Below the pieces are notes generated by a model. It did not search any database and was not told where the DNA came from. It worked only from the letters and a program-made list of their open reading frames with translations. Shown in pieces: positions 5,714 through 21,194 of a DNA stretch of 30,814 nt. The position numbers and the translations under genes were made by a program. Position 1 is the first letter of the stretch, and every line of letters starts with the position of its first letter. Source of the DNA: a virus; the IMG/VR virus record IMGVR_UViG_3300020195_000122, positions 1 through 30,814 of that record; one strand, 5' to 3'.

Positions 5714-5896
5714 CTATCGCCTTTCATAGAGAACTTCTATGTTAGTATCAGCGCCCAGCATTGCTGTGGTGGCCAGAACATCAGCGCGTTCATTCTCTAC
5801 GTCACCGTTATGACCACGTACCCAGACCGCCATGACCGTGTGTGTAGCCGTCAAAGCAAGGATCTCTTGCCAGAGGTAGATAATGACCGTTTCCAT
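5714..5896 (-). pseudogene. RNase HI C-terminal fragment
   Basis: The 60-residue frame matches the last third of RNase HI: an LWQEI helix, the strand VWVRGHNG (catalytic-loop His) and ENERADVLA, corresponding to the GHAGHPENERCDELA region of E. coli RNase HI and keeping the late Asp. The N-terminal half with the first three acidic catalytic residues is absent. The frame stays open 18 codons upstream of the ATG and still reads like the handle/helix region, then hits a stop; no N-terminal half is visible in any frame through 6300. An AAGGATAA site precedes the ATG, so a short protein may still be made. A decayed gene or a split gene is possible. Confidence 0.6.
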
Positions 5897-5929
5897 TTTA
5901 TCCTTGTTATGCGTCAGGCGTGACTTGGA

Positions 5930-6064
5930 CCTTAACTTAATTCTAGGTTAAGGCAGAGCTCCGCTACGCTTCGCTCTGGCTTGGCTGGCTGCGAGACGCA
6001 GCCAACCTCACTTAGTCTTTCTTTCTTGAGAGGAGAGGAACGGATCAGCTTGCTGGGCAAGCTG
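5930..6064 (-). promoter_or_regulatory. cluster of four hairpins upstream of the RNase H fragment
   Basis: Four short inverted repeats follow each other: CCTTAAC/GTTAAGG (5930-5936 with 5947-5953), CAGAGC/GCTCTG (5954-5959 with 5973-5978), TGGCTGC/GCAGCCA (5986-5992 with 5998-6004) and CAGCTTGC/GCAAGCTG (6046-6053 with 6057-6064). The last is 8 bp with a 3-base loop. None is followed by a clean U tract on either strand, so these are not simple terminators. They could be a structured leader or the remains of a mobile insertion in the RNase H gene. Confidence 0.45.
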
Positions 6065-6128
6065 TCCTAGCCGTCTCGGCCCACTGTTCCCTTAACCCCT
6101 GTTTTTTACACCGACTCAGTTCGCAGAC

Positions 6129-6310: not shown

Positions 6311-6410
6311 CAACGAAAAGCCCACTGCTGAGGCTGGAACTGTTGCTTAACACAACCACGAGCGCAGTGGGCTTCGTTGACATATTTAATTCGTGGTTGT
6401 GGTTAAGCAG
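6311..6410 (-). promoter_or_regulatory. interleaved inverted repeats, possible pseudoknot or switch
   Basis: Arm A (6311-6328) pairs with A' (6364-6379) over 16 bp with a two-base bulge; arm B (6343-6360) pairs with B' (6392-6410) over about 17 bp with a one-base bulge. The order A-B-A'-B' means the two helices either form a long H-type pseudoknot (connecting segments about 14, 3 and 12 nt) or exclude each other as alternative hairpins. On the minus strand the element lies between the stop of the 6430-6648 gene and the ribosome site of the TTG gene, where it could control translation or transcript ends. Confidence 0.6.
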
Positions 6411-6429
6411 CATCAGTATAACTGGGAGT

Positions 6430-6648
6430 CTAAGCTAACGCAATAGGTCTAATTGCGGTTCGATTTCCTTCGTCGTCATATATGAAAGAGACGCCGTCCT
6501 CCCAATGAAGCATGATACGTGCGCCTTCAATATGCTTAATGAAGATATGCTTGATGTGGGCATTAACTTCTCGCCCTTCATAGATGTGGCGCGAGCATTG
6601 ATACGTGCTGCCACTTACGGTACGAGTTTGAGTACACCTTGTTTTCAT
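6430..6648 (-). CDS. 72-aa hypothetical protein
   Basis: The ATG at 6648 follows GGAAAGGAAAT, a good site; a longer frame from 6708 would have no site and would enter the structured region, so I reject it. The product is basic at the N-terminus (MKTRCTQTRTVSGSTYQCSR) with a His-rich centre (HIKHIFIKHIEG) and a C-terminal beta-like segment. No family recognised. It is preceded by the tandem structured elements at 6661-7255. Confidence 0.7.
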   Translation of the reverse strand: MKTRCTQTRTVSGSTYQCSRHIYEGREVNAHIKHIFIKHIEGARIMLHWEDGVSFIYDDEGNRTAIRPIALA

Positions 6649-6660
6649 ATTTCCTTTCCA

Positions 6661-6797
6661 GTTTTGCTCTCGCCTGCGGGTAAGTGGGTTAGGGGAGATC
6701 ATCCCCAACGGAAATTACCTACCGCCCTGAGTCTTAGCGACGGTAATTACTCCGCGCCGTCCTCATCTCCACATATGCCCGCAGGAGAGAGCCAAAC
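6661..6797. ncRNA. structured element 1 of a tandem array
   Basis: The first and last 20 bases (6661-6680 and 6778-6797) pair at 18 of 20 positions, closing a 137-nt domain. Inside are GGGGA/TCCCC (loop GATCA, around 6692-6706) and AATTACC/GGTAATT. No open reading frame fits. Transcript strand is unknown: genes on both sides are on minus. It shares domain size and a closing terminal stem with elements 2 and 3, but no obvious sequence. Confidence 0.5.
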
Positions 6798-6800
6798 TAG

Positions 6801-6936
6801 TAGTCAGGGCAGCGCCTCCGGCAGGATCGAGCTATCGTGGGCGCTAGGCCGCTTGAAAGCCTTGCCTGATTTCCGGGTATCCTGCCCCGGCGTTTTCGCT
6901 AGGACTTAAACTAACCGGAGGACACTGCCCTGACTA
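6801..6936. ncRNA. structured element 2 of a tandem array
   Basis: A perfect 12-bp terminal stem, TAGTCAGGGCAG (6801-6812) with CTGCCCTGACTA (6925-6936), closes the domain. A second helix pairs CCTCCGG (6815-6821) with CCGGAGG (6915-6921), and an inner hairpin is CCGGG/CCCGG. It shares a 22-nt block starting at 6806, the octamer-like CCTGAT region, and the 15-mer CTAGGACTTAAACTA (6899-6913) with element 3, while the paired stems differ. That pattern suits a conserved RNA fold. No known RNA family recognised. Confidence 0.55.
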
Positions 6937-6951
6937 CAGGGCTCGTTCTAA

Positions 6952-7087
6952 CAAGGGCAGCGCCTCCGGCAGGATTCCTGAACCTTTGTCATCGCCGAAG
7001 CGCCTAACTAGCGAGCAGTTACCTGATCTCCCGCGGACGAGCCAACGGGTATTTTGCCTAGGACTTAAACTACCGGGGATACCCTTG
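6952..7087. ncRNA. structured element 3 of a tandem array
   Basis: Terminal stem CAAGGG (6952-6957) with CCCTTG (7082-7087). The 22-nt block recurs at 6954-6975 and CTAGGACTTAAACTA at 7058-7072. The second helix is kept: CCTCCGG (from 6963) pairs with CCGGGG (from 7073), where a U-A pair of element 2 becomes U-G if the plus strand is the RNA. The middle hairpin has changed sequence on both arms (CCCG/CGGG). Together with element 2 this is the best sequence evidence for a folded RNA here. Confidence 0.55.
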
Positions 7088-7173
7088 CTATAAATAGTAT
7101 CAAAGCCGCCCCAGGCTGTGCTGACAGCTTCAAATTGGCCATACCCTAACAATGTGCCAGCCCGCCCTAAACG

Positions 7174-7255
7174 AGCGGCTCACGACCGCCACACAGCCCG
7201 TATTTTGGTCGTAAATAAGGCGCAATGGCCCGCCCTATTGCTAGAGCAAGCCGCT
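7174..7255. ncRNA. structured element 4, shorter
   Basis: AGCGGCT (7174-7180) pairs with AGCCGCT (7249-7255) and encloses ACGACC (7182-7187)/GGTCGT (7207-7212). It begins five bases past the stop of the sigma-factor gene on the minus strand. A CCCGCCCTA repeat occurs at about 7160 and 7229. It lacks the motifs of elements 2 and 3 and may be an independent hairpin; it has no U tract that would make it an intrinsic terminator. Confidence 0.35.
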
Positions 7256-7260
7256 GGGTC

Positions 7261-7806
7261 TTATAGTAGTCGCATCTCCTGAATTCTCTTATGCCCGCTC
7301 TCCTGGAGCGCCCGGATTTGCAGGGGGTTGGCCTTCAGCAGATGGCTTAGTTCCTTCATGTGCAAGCCCCATGCGGGGCCAAAGATCGCCAGATACTCAC
7401 GGTCGTCTAGATTCTCCTGCGCCAAAGCCACCAGCGCCTCTAGCTCAACGCGCGCTTCATGCAGGTCCTCGTATGTGTAGCTAAGATCCTTGGCTGCGTC
7501 ACTGGCCGACCAGCTTGCGCTCCCTCCTTCTATGATTTCGCGCTCAACGCCGGTAAGGCTTTCGTTCTGTCCGTGGCGCTTGATCTCGCGCCACTTCCAG
7601 TTCAATAGTCCCCAGCGCAACTTCTTGGCGATCCAATAATGCGGGGGGATCTTATACTTGGCATCATATGACTGCGCCGCCTCTACGAGCAGGACTAGTC
7701 CTTCGCTGAGAGCCTCTTCTTGTAGGGAGGGCTGCATGCTCTTGACGACGTGATGCAGCACGCCTATGTGGTCGGCCGGATCAACCTGTGTCTTGCGTGG
7801 CGTCAT
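7261..7806 (-). CDS. sigma-70-like RNA polymerase sigma factor
   Basis: Predicted to bind host RNA polymerase and direct it to phage promoters. Residues about 25-78 match sigma region 2: QEEALSEGLVLLVEAAQSYDAKY followed by PPHYWIAKKLRWGLLNW, the aromatic/basic -10 melting helix. Residues about 118-179 look like region 4, with the helix-turn-helix KELSHLLKANPLQIRALQESGHKRIQEM. At 181 aa there is no room for region 1 or 3, as in small phage and ECF-type factors. I chose ATG 7806, which overlaps the upstream TGA as ATGA, over a GTG two codons earlier. Distant, so the family call is by pattern only. Confidence 0.75.
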   Translation of the reverse strand: MTPRKTQVDPADHIGVLHHVVKSMQPSLQEEALSEGLVLLVEAAQSYDAKYKIPPHYWIAKKLRWGLLNWKWREIKRHGQNESLTGVEREIIEGGSASWSASDAAKDLSYTYEDLHEARVELEALVALAQENLDDREYLAIFGPAWGLHMKELSHLLKANPLQIRALQESGHKRIQEMRLL

Positions 7807-8318
7807 GCCCACGCCGCACTTTCCTCAGGGAGCTCCTGACCAGCGTTCAAGAGGGCTTTTTCCTTCTTGCTGAGCTCCTTGTGGATGCGGCTGGGCTTGC
7901 GAACGGGCTGAATAACCGCCCCGCTCTTCTGTAGCTCCTCCTCAAGTGTTGGATTAGAAACCAGTTCCATAGCCAGCTTGTCTTGATTGACAACGCGCTG
8001 AACGCTCGTGACTCGGTTCCAGATCTTCTTGGCGATCTCGGGCGCGAAGGTAGCCTGTATTGTTTTCTCCAAGATCTCCATATTGACCTTAGGCTGCAAT
8101 ACAGGAACGATGCGGGCGAGCTTGTAGCCGTTGTCGGCAATGAAGCGCGTGCTGGCTTCTGCGCCGACCTCCTGCGAGAACAGGTCAAAGACCTGCACAA
8201 ACAAGAGGTCATACTTGGCCAATGCTTTGTCGCGCTCCGCCTCTGTCTCTGTCAATTGGACTGACAGCGCGTTCAGCTTTGCGTCTGTGTTGTTGCTAAA
8301 TTGAGACGTGAAACTCAT
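7803..8318 (-). CDS. hypothetical coiled-coil protein, 171 aa
   Basis: Not recognised. Residues about 10-50 (LNALSVQLTETEAERDKALA) are predicted coiled coil; the C-terminus is basic with KPSRIHKELSKKEKALLNAG. It is translated just before the sigma factor and coupled to it by ATGA, so a role with the sigma factor (partner or anti-sigma) is conceivable but unproved. A strong AAAGGAGGG site precedes the ATG, after the hairpin at 8346-8396. Confidence 0.75.
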   Translation of the reverse strand: MSFTSQFSNNTDAKLNALSVQLTETEAERDKALAKYDLLFVQVFDLFSQEVGAEASTRFIADNGYKLARIVPVLQPKVNMEILEKTIQATFAPEIAKKIWNRVTSVQRVVNQDKLAMELVSNPTLEEELQKSGAVIQPVRKPSRIHKELSKKEKALLNAGQELPEESAAWA

Positions 8319-14086: not shown

Positions 14087-14129
14087 TTCCGTTCGCCTTT
14101 CTCTCCGTCCTTGGAGATTTCCTTGCCGC

Positions 14130-14181
14130 TCCACGCCTCTGTGGAACGGGCACGCGAAGGCACGAACTTTCGCTCATGCCC
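14130..14181 (-). promoter_or_regulatory. two-hairpin intercistronic leader, copy 5
   Basis: In mRNA order: long hairpin GGGCA/TGCCC (outer) with GCGAA/TTCGC (inner), then TCCAC/GTGGA, then GGCAAGGA before the AAA+ gene. It shares its plan with the leaders at 15359, 16264, 17321 and 17626. Confidence 0.5.
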
Positions 14182-14190
14182 TCGCTGTGC

Positions 14191-15358: not shown

Positions 15359-15418
15359 CACCGAACGCCTTAGCTCGGTGCGCACGAAGGAAGGCGAAGA
15401 TTTCGCCCTCTATCGTGC
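15359..15418 (-). promoter_or_regulatory. two-hairpin intercistronic leader, copy 1
   Basis: Starts four bases past the upstream stop. In mRNA order: a long hairpin GCACGA/TCGTGC outer and GGCGAA/TTCGCC inner (loop of three, 15382-15418), then CACCGA/TCGGTG (15359-15380), then GGCAAG and GAAGGAG. The long hairpin is nearly identical to that of copy 2 at 17344-17380, about 2 kb away. Confidence 0.6.
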
Positions 15419-17320: not shown

Positions 17321-17380
17321 CCCTTCACTTCTGTGTGAAGGGCGCACGAAGGAAGGCGAAGAGTTCGCCCTCTATCGTGC
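17321..17380 (-). promoter_or_regulatory. two-hairpin intercistronic leader, copy 2
   Basis: Long hairpin GCACGA/TCGTGC with GGCGAA/TTCGCC inside (17344-17380) and then CCCTTCAC/GTGAAGGG (17321-17342), followed by GGCATG and AAAGGAGG. It differs from copy 1 in the long hairpin at one loop base only, while the second stem is unrelated in sequence. Confidence 0.6.
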
Positions 17381-17385
17381 CTTGC

Positions 17386-17625: not shown

Positions 17626-17712
17626 CCCTCAACGCCTTTGTTGAGGGCGCACCCTGCCGTACACGAGCGCATACTAAGCATCACCTAGAAGCGCCCCTGT
17701 GCGGCAGCGTGC
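17626..17712 (-). promoter_or_regulatory. two-hairpin leader of the operon, copy 4
   Basis: CCCTCAAC/GTTGAGGG (17626-17647), then GCAC/GTGC outer (17649-17652, 17709-17712) with CTGCCG/CGGCAG (17654-17659, 17702-17707) and an inner GCGC/GCGC. On minus it is followed by GGCAAAG and GAAGG before the ATG at 17601. It is longer than the other copies, and the only one not preceded by an identified gene. Confidence 0.5.
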
Positions 17713-18422
17713 CATTCCGTTCATCACGTCGTCTGTATGGAGGGTCTGTACTTGCGCCTGTGCTTGACTCTAAACGGCGTTATCGCATTAGCATGAATCA
17801 ATTACAACCTGCTGTTGGCATGAATAGCGCCCCGTATGGCAGGCTCTCCTCCCGCGGTACATTGCCCGAACACCTCGATTCGGGCGCTGTTTGGTGCGGT
17901 TAGAAACATACTGATATGACAATGGCCAGTCAGCCCACGTTTGCGTTCCAGTCTTCAACGGCTGTGCGGCGTGATGGGTGTGCGGCCTACAACAGAGCGG
18001 GATTACAGTCCCTGAAGCGACATACTTAGCAGCCACTTTCCCTTGCAGCCCTAAGCAGTTTCGCCTACTCTTTAAGAGCGGTACGTGTGTCCAGCACCTA
18101 CGCCCCGTTGGTTTGTTCCGTCTATCGGGTGGAAATTACCTTTTGCAGCACCACCATGCGATATAGGGATTATGTTGGCGGGTAGAACGCGCCCCGCGCT
18201 GCGCCGACAAAGGGCGATATTGTTTGTCTATTCCTTATCCCTCCACTGATTACCGTACTCTTGGCTGCTGGTAGGACGCCGCTTAGCCAAGCTGTATCTT
18301 GCGGGACCTTGCGGCCCAGCTACCCTAAGTGTAACTTCTATGGAAAAGCTTGAGCAACGGACACGAAAGCCCCGCATTTGCGCTCTTTGGGGACTTCAGG
18401 TATGGTTTCCTAGGAGGGACAT
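17713..18422. other. gene-free divergence region, hairpin-rich; possible large RNA
   Basis: About 700 nt without a convincing gene lie between the leftward and rightward modules. Visible stems: GCCCGAA/TTCGGGC (17864-17885, loop 8), GGTGG/CCACC (18128-18155), GTTGGCG/CGCCGAC (18174-18208), and a two-part stem CTTAG...CTAAG with AGCTG/CAGCT inside (18282-18329). The 11-mer GGAAATTACCT at about 18131 also occurs in structured element 1 (about 6710). Promoters for both modules must lie here or nearby, but I see no consensus pair strong enough to mark. Confidence 0.4.
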
Positions 18423-18929
18423 ATGGGACGAATACTGAAGCGCACTACTTTGACGGGAAAACAGTCTCTGGCGATGATGAAACTGGTCAAGGGAATTTCT
18501 CCGTCCTCTGTAGCTCAAGAAATGGGGATGTCTGTAGGTACGATCTATACCTGGCAGAAGTCTCCCGTCTTCCTCGAACGCCAAGCTCAATACGTCGAAT
18601 CCCTAGCTCGACAGGAAATGGATCGCGGCCTCCAGGAAGCTGAGGTTACGCTTCATGAGTCTTCCAGCGCGATTGTCCAATGGATGCTCAACGTCGTATT
18701 GGGAGTGACCGAGTGCAAAGACAAAAACAGATGGCGCATGGCGTTGGACTTCTTGCATCACGCAGGGATCATCGATCAGCAAGTATTAGCAAAAAATTCG
18801 GCCCTCGAAGCCCAAGGACATTCAATCAATCTAAACCTCGATCAAAGGAGGCAATCGATCCTAGCAGCGGGGAATCAAGAGCTTCAATCACAATTGGAAA
18901 AGTTTTCGCCCCTAAGGCCCGGCTCTTAG
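18423..18929 (+). CDS. terminase small subunit candidate
   Basis: A 168-aa protein with an N-terminal helix-turn-helix (ISPSSVAQEMGMSVGTIYTWQKSPVF, about residues 29-55) followed by a long helical region and a polar tail, the layout of small terminases of the HTH type. AGGAGG lies six bases before the ATG. It is the first rightward gene; TerL lies 3.5 kb downstream, with an inserted unit between, which is unusual for a TerS-TerL pair. A transposase-like regulator is the main alternative. Confidence 0.55.
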   Translation: MGRILKRTTLTGKQSLAMMKLVKGISPSSVAQEMGMSVGTIYTWQKSPVFLERQAQYVESLARQEMDRGLQEAEVTLHESSSAIVQWMLNVVLGVTECKDKNRWRMALDFLHHAGIIDQQVLAKNSALEAQGHSINLNLDQRRQSILAAGNQELQSQLEKFSPLRPGS

Positions 18930-19800
18930 CTTCAATTTTACCCCTAAACCTAGTAGGTGCCACCGCACCAGTTTTGAAGCCGCTACGACGCTTACAGGCG
19001 TAGCTACGGGCCTGGCAAAGCGGCGTTTTAGCCTGTTTATAGGCGTTTTGTGGCAATAGACGAACGAGTTGAGACAATCCCTAGCTTCGATCACTTTCCT
19101 AGCTCTTTCTGCTCTGCACTAGCTCCTAGCTTCAAAAAGTCCTGTTTGAACCCCCCTGTAGCCTAGAATGACGCTGAATGAGTGAAGATCACTGCCTAGG
19201 GCTTGCGAATCCCTAATATTCCTGGTATCGTGATGTCATCACGGGTCACCTGCCCCTCCCTCAATCCCCCTCAAAGCACGAATCCCTGCCTAGAAGTTCT
19301 CATCGTTCTTCGCCGGCCTGAACTGATTTGACCCGAATGCACCAGTCGAGCTTCGAGGCCTCGTAGCTTCGGCGCACCACTTCTTTCGCGCCTGAATTTC
19401 GCTCTTCTTGCCTGAACCTCTTGCGAAAAAATGAACGGGAATGACTCGTCTCGTCCTGCCTCCCTCACTGAACTTCCTGACTGAATGCATCACTTCGAGG
19501 CTCTGCTTCTGCGGGCGCAACGCTTCAGTTTTTCGCGCCTGATCCGTCTTTCATGGAATACGAGCCGGTATGCTAAAAATAAAGTTCAGTTCGAACCTCG
19601 ACGTGAACTTCCCTGACTGAACTTCCTGAAGACGTGAACTTCACCGCCTGAAGATGTGAACTTCCTGCCTGACTTGAACGAGCATGAGGATCCCGCGTGA
19701 ACTTCCCGCAGGAGGATCACCTGCGATGATCGCCCACGAGGATCGCGATTCTTCGGCATGAATGATACGAGCCTAGCGAGCGAGCGTGGTCGATCCAGGG
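18930..19800. other. 870-nt non-coding stretch with short repeats
   Basis: No frame looks like a gene on either strand. The first 220 bases hold scattered CTAGCTTC copies (around 18926, 19081 and 19128). The second half holds TGAACTTC and GAGGATC repeats (separate entry). GC content and word use differ from the coding regions. An origin or regulatory region is possible. Confidence 0.5.
19469..19705 (+). repeat. six TGAACTTC iteron-like repeats
   Basis: Exact TGAACTTC occurs at 19469, 19604, 19618, 19635, 19657 and 19698, five of them inside 102 bp. Most copies read (G/C)TGAACTTC(C), flanked by CCTGA. Directly after come three GAGGATC copies (about 19686, 19712 and 19738). Directly repeated short words in a gene-free stretch are typical of replication origins or operator clusters. 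I see no initiator gene next to it. Confidence 0.6.
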
Positions 19801-19801
19801 C

Positions 19802-19828
19802 AAAAAGAAAGCGGGGCTTGCGCCCCGC
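19802..19828 (-). terminator. intrinsic terminator of the minus-strand cassette
   Basis: On the minus strand GCGGGGC-GCAA-GCCCCGC (19811-19828) forms a 7-bp GC stem with a GNRA loop and is followed at once by TTTCTTTTT. This is a textbook Rho-independent terminator, placed just after the last gene of the cassette. Confidence 0.88.
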
Positions 19829-19835
19829 CTGCGTG

Positions 19836-20012
19836 CTAGGTGCGCTGTGTGCCGCAACGCCAGCACGCCGGATGCGCCGTTACTTGCCCAAAGGCAGTGA
19901 CCAGGCTATGCAAGGCCCAGAGCGCCGCACCTATGCGGGTGCTGCTGCCCATTTCCCGGTTAGCGTGGTAGCCTGCCCAGAAGCCACCAATTACGCGCTT
20001 GTGTAGTAACAT
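19836..20012 (-). CDS. third gene of the inserted cassette, 58 aa
   Basis: Begins MLLHKRVIGGFWAGYHANRE and ends with a CWRCG pair. No family recognised. No strong ribosome site is seen before the ATG (AAGGGG is about 15 bases away), so the start is uncertain. It lies between the second copy of the repeated hairpin and the terminator, fitting the pattern hairpin-gene-hairpin-gene. Confidence 0.45.
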   Translation of the reverse strand: MLLHKRVIGGFWAGYHANREMGSSTRIGAALWALHSLVTAFGQVTAHPACWRCGTQRT

Positions 20013-20043
20013 TGGAAAACCCCTTATGTGGTTGTGTGGTGGC

Positions 20044-20064
20044 AGGGGTGCTATGCGCACCCCT
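20044..20064 (-). repeat. cassette hairpin, copy 2
   Basis: AGGGGTGC and GCACCCCT (8 bp, five-base loop TATGC) with flanks matching copy 1 at 20294-20314 (GGTGGC before, TAGCC after). It lies between the second and third cassette genes. There is no U tract, so it is not an intrinsic terminator; it may stabilise or process the transcript. Confidence 0.7.
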
Positions 20065-20082
20065 AGCCCGGTGGTGGTGGTG

Positions 20083-20262
20083 CTACAAGTAGCGCGCTGT
20101 AAATTGCGCCGCTGTAGCGGGTGCGGTGCGGTACCCGGTGGTGCGCTTGCAAGCCTTGCACGTTACGCCTTGTGTGTGCCCGTGGTGTGGCCACGGCCCA
20201 AACAACGCGCGCCCGCAAGCAGTAGCGTTGGTTAGGCTTAGGTGCATTGTTGTGTTTGCCAT
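20083..20262 (-). CDS. second gene of the inserted cassette, HL...CG...TCxxC protein, 59 aa
   Basis: Reads MHLSLTNATACG then GVTCKACKR: the same His/CG/CxxC plan as the products at 8410, 14569, 16813 and 20335. Starting at the upstream ATG gives MANTTMHL. The last 20 residues are Thr/Ala-rich. Probably one zinc site, role unknown. Confidence 0.6.
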   Translation of the reverse strand: MANTTMHLSLTNATACGRALFGPWPHHGHTQGVTCKACKRTTGYRTAPATAAQFTARYL

Positions 20263-20293
20263 TGTGGTAGTAACCCCTGTTTGTGGTGGTGGC

Positions 20294-20314
20294 AGGGGTG
20301 CTACGCGCACCCCT
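20294..20314 (-). repeat. cassette hairpin, copy 1
   Basis: AGGGGTGC/GCACCCCT with loop TACGC, between the first and second cassette genes. With copy 2 it defines a repeat of roughly 45 nt that includes the GGTGGCAGGGG and TAGCC flanks and a GTGGTG-rich side. Confidence 0.7.
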
Positions 20315-20334
20315 TAGCCTGTTGTTGTGGTGCC

Positions 20335-20700
20335 CTACGCTGCGGTTGGCGCTTGTGCCGCTACCGGCGCGGTTGGCGCTTGTGGTGCCACCTTGCGCGC
20401 CTTGCGTGGCGCGGCGGGCTTGGTGGTAGCTGCCTTGCTTATGCAGCGCTTGCACGTTGCGGCGGCCTTGCTTGCCACAAAATTAACCCGCATTGCCAGC
20501 ATGGTAGGCGTTGCCTGCTGCAGGCCGTGCGCCTTGCTGTACGTGCCACATAGGGTGGCACCCGCTGCCAGTGTGTGCACTGGCCAAGCGGCACTAGCCG
20601 CGCTTGCGTTACGCGGTTGCACGTTGCCCGCTTGCAGCTTGCAGGGCACGTACACCCACTTGCCCGGCGCTACGGTGGTGGTGGTTGGCTTGTTAGCCAT
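20335..20700 (-). CDS. first gene of the inserted cassette, 121 aa
   Basis: Starts MANKPTTTTVAPGKWVYVPC. The middle has VHTLAAGATLCG and ATCKRCISKA, the His/LCG/CxxC pattern again, and the C-terminus is a low-complexity Ala/Pro/Lys/Thr tail (KPAAPRKARKVAPQAPTAP). I use ATG 20700; AAGG lies upstream but is weak. The tail may be a nucleic-acid-binding or disordered linker. Confidence 0.65.
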   Translation of the reverse strand: MANKPTTTTVAPGKWVYVPCKLQAGNVQPRNASAASAAWPVHTLAAGATLCGTYSKAHGLQQATPTMLAMRVNFVASKAAATCKRCISKAATTKPAAPRKARKVAPQAPTAPVAAQAPTAA

Positions 20701-20784
20701 AATTGGCGGCCGCCTTAAGCCGCTACTGCCTTGCAGGCTACTGCCACCCAACAACAATGCCGGGTGCGCTTGCGCCCACGCCTA

Positions 20785-20793
20785 ATTATACCA
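20785..20793 (-). promoter_or_regulatory. extended -10 promoter of the cassette
   Basis: TGGTATAAT on the minus strand is a perfect extended -10 (TGnTATAAT). No good -35 is seen at 17 bp (TCCATA), which extended -10 promoters can do without. Transcription would start near 20778, about 78 bases before the first ATG at 20700. Confidence 0.6.
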
Positions 20794-20891
20794 TCGGGGG
20801 GGTGGTCTATGGAGCATCACCTCCGGTTGTATGCGTAGCTATTTTCACTACATACCAGCCGGTAGCCTCAGAAGGTATACGTATCCTCATG

Positions 20892-20942
20892 AATATTTTT
20901 TCGAAAAAAAATATTGCATTGCACAGGCCCGTGGAGTATTGA
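20892..20942 (+). promoter_or_regulatory. AT-rich palindrome and weak rightward promoter
   Basis: AATATTTTTT (20892-20901) pairs with AAAAAATATT (20906-20915). TTGCAT (20914-20919), a 17-bp spacer and TATTGA (20937-20942) form a possible promoter, but each hexamer matches consensus at only three positions. It would serve the gene at 20964, which has a strong AAGGAGG site. The palindrome overlapping the -35 could be an operator. Confidence 0.3.
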
Positions 20943-20963
20943 TACTACTGGTAAGGAGGAACC

Positions 20964-21194
20964 ATGTCTGAAGTAGATGCGCTATATGCCTTCGTGAGGC
21001 GATGGTTCGACGAACGATATGGAGGAAATTCAATGGCGGGTCCATTGTCTGTTGCGCCGGATCATAAAGAGCAATATAAGAAGATCTATGAACGCTGCGC
21101 GTTGATTCTGAAGGAACTTTCTGAAGAGCTAGGGCCGGAGGGCGTGAAATTAGTGACGCGGGTTCAAGACGCCGCGTACTTGGACTCGAGATAA
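20964..21194 (+). CDS. hypothetical helical protein, 76 aa
   Basis: Not recognised. Helical and acidic, with YKKIYERCALILKELSEELG as a clear amphipathic stretch. GTAAGGAGGAACC lies directly upstream of the ATG. Confidence 0.7.
   Translation: MSEVDALYAFVRRWFDERYGGNSMAGPLSVAPDHKEQYKKIYERCALILKELSEELGPEGVKLVTRVQDAAYLDSR

Follow-up and report, generated by a model that had tools for sequence, protein, structure and literature searches.

The 609 nt of DNA upstream of ORF 6430–6651 in this uncultured phage are, on the likeliest account, a structured leader RNA. In the form that we tentatively favour, the leader is intercistronic and read from the minus strand, and its elements 3 and 2 are diverged copies of one module; a trans-acting RNA, sites that act as DNA, and decay remain as alternatives. 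The evidence consists of stems beyond chance, paired conserved cores, the position of the array and the absence of any known family that matches it. The window (the whole stretch analysed) is a record of 30.8 kb. The features are as follows:

6430–6651, minus strand: small ORF downstream of the array, with an ATG start, an SD-like GGAAAGGA and no assigned function.
6660–6798, minus strand: element 1, with a closing stem of 19/21 and an interior unlike the others; it ends directly before GGAAAGGA and the start codon of ORF 6430–6651.
6800–6937, minus strand: element 2, with perfect 13-nt arms plus CCUCCGG/CCGGAGG and core motifs as in element 3.
6806–6827: element 2 copy of a 22-nt block, minus-strand reading ATCCTGCCGGAGGCGCTGCCCT.
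6899–6913: element 2 copy of the 15-mer CTAGGACTTAAACTA, minus-strand reading TAGTTTAAGTCCTAG, which contains UUUAAGU.
6940–6946, minus strand: linker ACGAGCC from element 3 to element 2, a 7-nt complement of GGCUCGU (7037–7043) in the hairpin loop of element 3.
6949–7090, minus strand: element 3, first in minus-strand order, with closing helix UAGCAAGGGUA..CCCCGG / CCGGAGGCGCUGCCCUUGUUA and core UAGUUUAAGUCCUAG, AUCAGG, AUCCUGCCGGAGGCGCUGCCCU.
6954–6975: element 3 copy of the 22-nt block.
7058–7072: element 3 copy of the 15-mer.
7261–7812, minus strand: ORF upstream of the array, earlier called a sigma factor, with no family match.

ORF 7261–7812 and ORF 6430–6651 both lie on the minus strand, and the 609 bases that separate them (6652–7260) hold three back-to-back elements, each with its own closing stem. 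The first-pass annotation had placed the array at 6661–7087, which is correct to a few bases of the refined limits (6660–7090). A coding stretch was rejected, since 6652–7260 has no long open frame and no protein-sized ORF; stop-free frames there run to at most 85 codons (plus strand) or 81 codons (minus strand). A tRNA-like gene was rejected with ARAGORN, whose model detected no tRNA or tmRNA in the whole window. The description of the upstream neighbour as a sigma-factor gene found no support: ORF 7261–7812 has no match in Pfam or PHROGs even at an E-value of 1 and no PDB relative, its AlphaFold2 model (mean pLDDT 45) is of too low a quality for the fold to be assessed, and its sequence is sigma-like in look by eye only.

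The closing stems proved slightly longer than first described. The arms of element 1 (6660–6680 and 6778–6798) are complementary at 19 of 21 positions (18 of 20 had been claimed), and those of element 2 (6800–6812 and 6925–6937) at 13 of 13 (12 of 12 claimed), with a U-G pair, a G-C pair, a bulge and CCUCCGG/CCGGAGG lengthening the latter stem to 22 pairs. Dinucleotide shuffling of 6652–7260, repeated 300 times, gave no perfect inverted repeat longer than 12 and no 21-nt arm pair better than 17, so that the values for elements 1 and 2 were reached in 0/300; nor was a perfect 13-nt arm found elsewhere in the phage when it was tiled in 609-nt segments. On the minus strand element 2 folds with a z-score of −6.0 and element 1 with −4.4 (−5.8 on the plus strand). 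Element 3 is the weaker member. The six pairs reported for it (CAAGGG/CCCTTG, 6/6) are there and extend to TAGCAAGGG/CCCTTGTTA, giving nine pairs, one of them a G-U in the minus-strand reading. Taken alone, however, the stem is weak, being matched or beaten in 72/5000 shuffles with G-U pairs allowed and 285/5000 without; its folding z-score is about −0.5 on either strand, no better than shuffles. With respect to the core that both elements share, the stem is nevertheless placed just as that of element 2 is.

It is this core that joins elements 2 and 3. The 22-mer and the 15-mer are identical between them and CCTGAT (ATCAGG on the minus strand) is common to both, as the earlier reading had stated for all three motifs, and the minus-strand order is also the same: CCGG-(U)UAGUUUAAGUCCUAG, AAAA, AUCAGG, AUCCUGCCGGAGGCGCUGCCCU. 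By comparison, what lies between the blocks shows no more similarity than shuffled sequence does (102/1000 and 343/1000). Element 1 has none of the motifs common to elements 2 and 3. The array therefore does contain three stem-closed elements as described, but they are two copies of one module and one different stem, not three alike. UUUAAGU in the minus-strand 15-mer fits the T-loop consensus, a resemblance only. The linker at 6940–6946 may pair with the element 3 loop at 7037–7043 as a candidate pseudoknot (29/5000 shuffles).

In the closing helices of the two modules a shared 3′ strand pairs with differing 5′ strands. MAFFT misaligned the 5′ arms, so the pairs were tabulated manually with the shared 3′ strand as the anchor. 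Between these two copies both members differ in two pairs and one member in three, and one pair is broken (C-A); three inner pairs and the outermost pair of the helix are missing from element 3. The two both-sides changes preserve pairing in the outer helix, but the covariation that had been called a hallmark of conserved RNA comes down to these two changes between two sequences. The compensated central hairpin fared no better, with 5 bp found in 556/5000 shuffles and 4 bp in 1764/5000 and hence no significance, although a short hairpin ahead of AUCAGG is formable in both elements. A pair described as changing from U-A to U-G does so on the plus strand; read on the minus strand it is a mismatch, C-A. 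Over the whole hand alignment the two helices, read on the minus strand, show four G-U pairs and a single mismatch; read on the plus strand they show one G-U pair and four mismatches. Folding energies leave the strand undecided, as the stems fold nearly equally well on both; the G-U pairs and the direction of the flanking genes weakly favour the minus strand, the counts being small.

As a leader, the array would be transcribed from the minus strand together with the leftward genes, from ORF 7261–7812 to ORF 6430–6651. Elements 3 and 2 would each present a long closing helix, a conserved T-loop-like UAGUUUAAGUCCUAG arm, a conserved AUCAGG and a conserved AUCCUGCCGGAGGCGCUGCCC strand, and element 1 would form a separate long stem adjoining the ribosome-binding site of ORF 6430–6651. 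The closing helices of about 20 bp may punctuate the polycistronic transcript, as the sites of RNase III-type cuts or by protecting a 5′ end, and the conserved cores could be recognised by a factor that adjusts how strongly the downstream gene is expressed. Counting against a structured leader are the ordinary folding of element 3, its broken and missing pairs, the presence of two copies only, the lack of homologues, the small G-U count and the finding that no promoter or terminator scored above shuffles. In its favour, leader structures are a habit of this genome: at least four further structured hairpins directly ahead of start codons, with clear covariation, occur in the same phage.

Four of these share one design, on the minus strand at 14126–14190, 15359–15416, 17321–17381 and 17626–17712: a hairpin closed by GCAC..GTGC is followed by an 8–9 bp hairpin with a six-base loop (UAAGGC, ACAGAA, AGAGGC and AAAGGC), then by GCAAG, GCAUG or GCAAAG and a purine-rich stretch ahead of the start codon. 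All 32 of 32 cells of the second hairpin pair and both sides change in four of the eight pairs; as the copies were picked by pairing, the percentage paired is partly built in, whereas the both-sides changes are not. The covariation score exceeded that of 500/500 shuffles and of every slid register, and a search of the window for the design returned only those four on the minus strand and one plus-strand fit that lacks the loop motif. This four-copy hairpin is better supported than the three-element array.

Other features of the window deserve mention in their own right. At 6313–6412 on the minus strand two long-arm pairs cross (TGCTTAACCACAACCACGA with TCGTGGTTGTGTTAAGCA and CAACGAAGCCCACTGC with GCAGTGGGCTTTTCGTTG), which may represent either a pseudoknot or two exclusive hairpins; they overlap a possible 25-aa ORF and precede an SD and a TTG-started 53-codon ORF. 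The minus-strand stretch 5714–5908 encodes only the C-terminal part of an RNase H (PF00075 positions 87–139), no N-terminal part came to light in the rest of the record, and hairpin-rich non-coding DNA (5921–6065; z −4.9) lies directly upstream. About 700 bases with no clear gene (17720–18420) separate the leftward genes from a rightward gene (18423–18929) with a weak match to the terminase small subunit, and a further 2 kb with no recognised gene (18950–20960), where the cumulative GC skew turns, lie between that gene and the gene at 20964–21194; they contain short repeats (19600–19672) as well as a 48-nt repeat, at 20036 and again at 20286.

Rather than serving as a leader, elements 2 and 3 could be stand-alone trans-acting phage RNAs cut from the operon transcript, with a core that binds a host or phage protein as a decoy, inhibitor or scaffold, and with element 1 as an unrelated leader stem. 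We think this unlikely, but it draws on the same invariant core with a free periphery in two adjacent copies, on the motif that fits the T-loop consensus, and on the distance of 150–300 nt to the next gene, which is far for a simple leader. Against it stand the poor folding of element 3 and the lack of a promoter or terminator of its own, as none at the array scored above shuffles. The searches for relatives count against it too. No family in Rfam 15 reached its gathering threshold, nor did permissive settings bring out a relative; SpR20 came closest within the stretch, with 12.2 bits where 45 are required (E 9.6). A known riboswitch or ribozyme was rejected on this ground. An IMG/VR scan with TAGGACTTAAACTA gave at least 119 loci, with the second block in place in none among the matches listed; scans with CTCCGGCAGGAT..CCTGAT, GTTTAAGTCCTA..ATCAGG, CCTGCCGGAGGCGCTGCC and a relaxed three-part pattern gave no match with the remaining module, which was likewise present in 0/13 matches in GTDB genomes. 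Blastn against phage and plasmid records returned nothing above chance, and a covariance model of the two copies found no third in the window, the next hit being the reverse strand of element 2 at 12 bits. Close protein relatives of ORF 7261–7812, the SNF2 helicase and the DnaB helicase were not found in IMG/VR, and the best phage matches of the terminase and DnaB are about 25% identical. Since no homologue was found, covariation among homologues, by which a conserved RNA is judged, speaks neither for nor against the module.

The original proposal of a phage non-coding RNA array thus stands in its beyond-chance structure, its two module copies with an invariant core and changed flanks, its lack of a protein-sized ORF and its lack of a known family (as the Rfam and motif scans bore out), and lacks support in its three like elements, its sigma neighbour and its hallmark covariation. 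It is a possibility, though a doubtful one, that elements 2 and 3 are founders of an undescribed phage RNA class: multi-branched, with a T-loop-like arm, arranged as a tandem pair, excised from an early operon and acting on a host or phage factor.

That the repeats act as DNA, either as hairpins or as paired sites that serve replication, packaging or recombination, seems improbable. Stems that fold almost equally on both strands would suit such a role, and DNA sites bound by proteins likewise typically show inverted repeats and conserved boxes; but the helix is better kept on one strand through G-U pairs, and the Pfam and PHROGs scans of the ORFs revealed no recombinase among those covered. 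A replication origin at the array was rejected because the cumulative GC skew turns near 20 kb and not here. Integron attC arrays resemble it in consisting of imperfect inverted repeats, about 140 bp long and with conserved boxes, set in tandem; they were rejected because GTTRRRY / RYYYAAC boxes are absent by eye and no tyrosine integrase is present among the ORFs scanned (Pfam, PHROGs). An old duplication in fast-evolving intergenic DNA with no present function, its identical blocks due to recent gene conversion and element 3 a decayed copy, would explain the degraded helix and ordinary folding energy of element 3 and the missing homologues, but is hardly probable given two separate identical blocks with randomised sequence between them, closing arms that changed yet still pair, and the rarity of such ballast in phages.

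Phage genomes are compact, so a non-coding stretch of 600 bases that carries a folded module in two diverged copies probably has some role. Should this module turn out to be an RNA, it would add a family that Rfam does not cover, and the phage has a second, better supported repeated RNA element in its leaders; this genome would then be a good place to study the part that structured leaders play in phage gene expression. The reach so far is one virus with no known relative. Processing stems of the T7 RNase III type occur in phage early transcripts, and the structured leader proposed here is like them in having long imperfect stems between co-directional genes; its elements are much larger, with conserved cores, and their cleavage is putative. 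GOLLD and ROOL are ornate RNAs of phages and metagenomes that came from comparative genomics (PMC2864571, PMC12286853). The array resembles them in being non-coding and structured, in a phage-type genome and with a function that is not established, but its modules are about 140 nt, in two copies in one phage, and have no Rfam match. Unlike tandem riboswitches and aptamers (PMC9481103), the array matches no known aptamer, has no identified expression platform and precedes a gene without an assigned function, but it shares with them two diverged copies of a conserved core placed in tandem before a gene.
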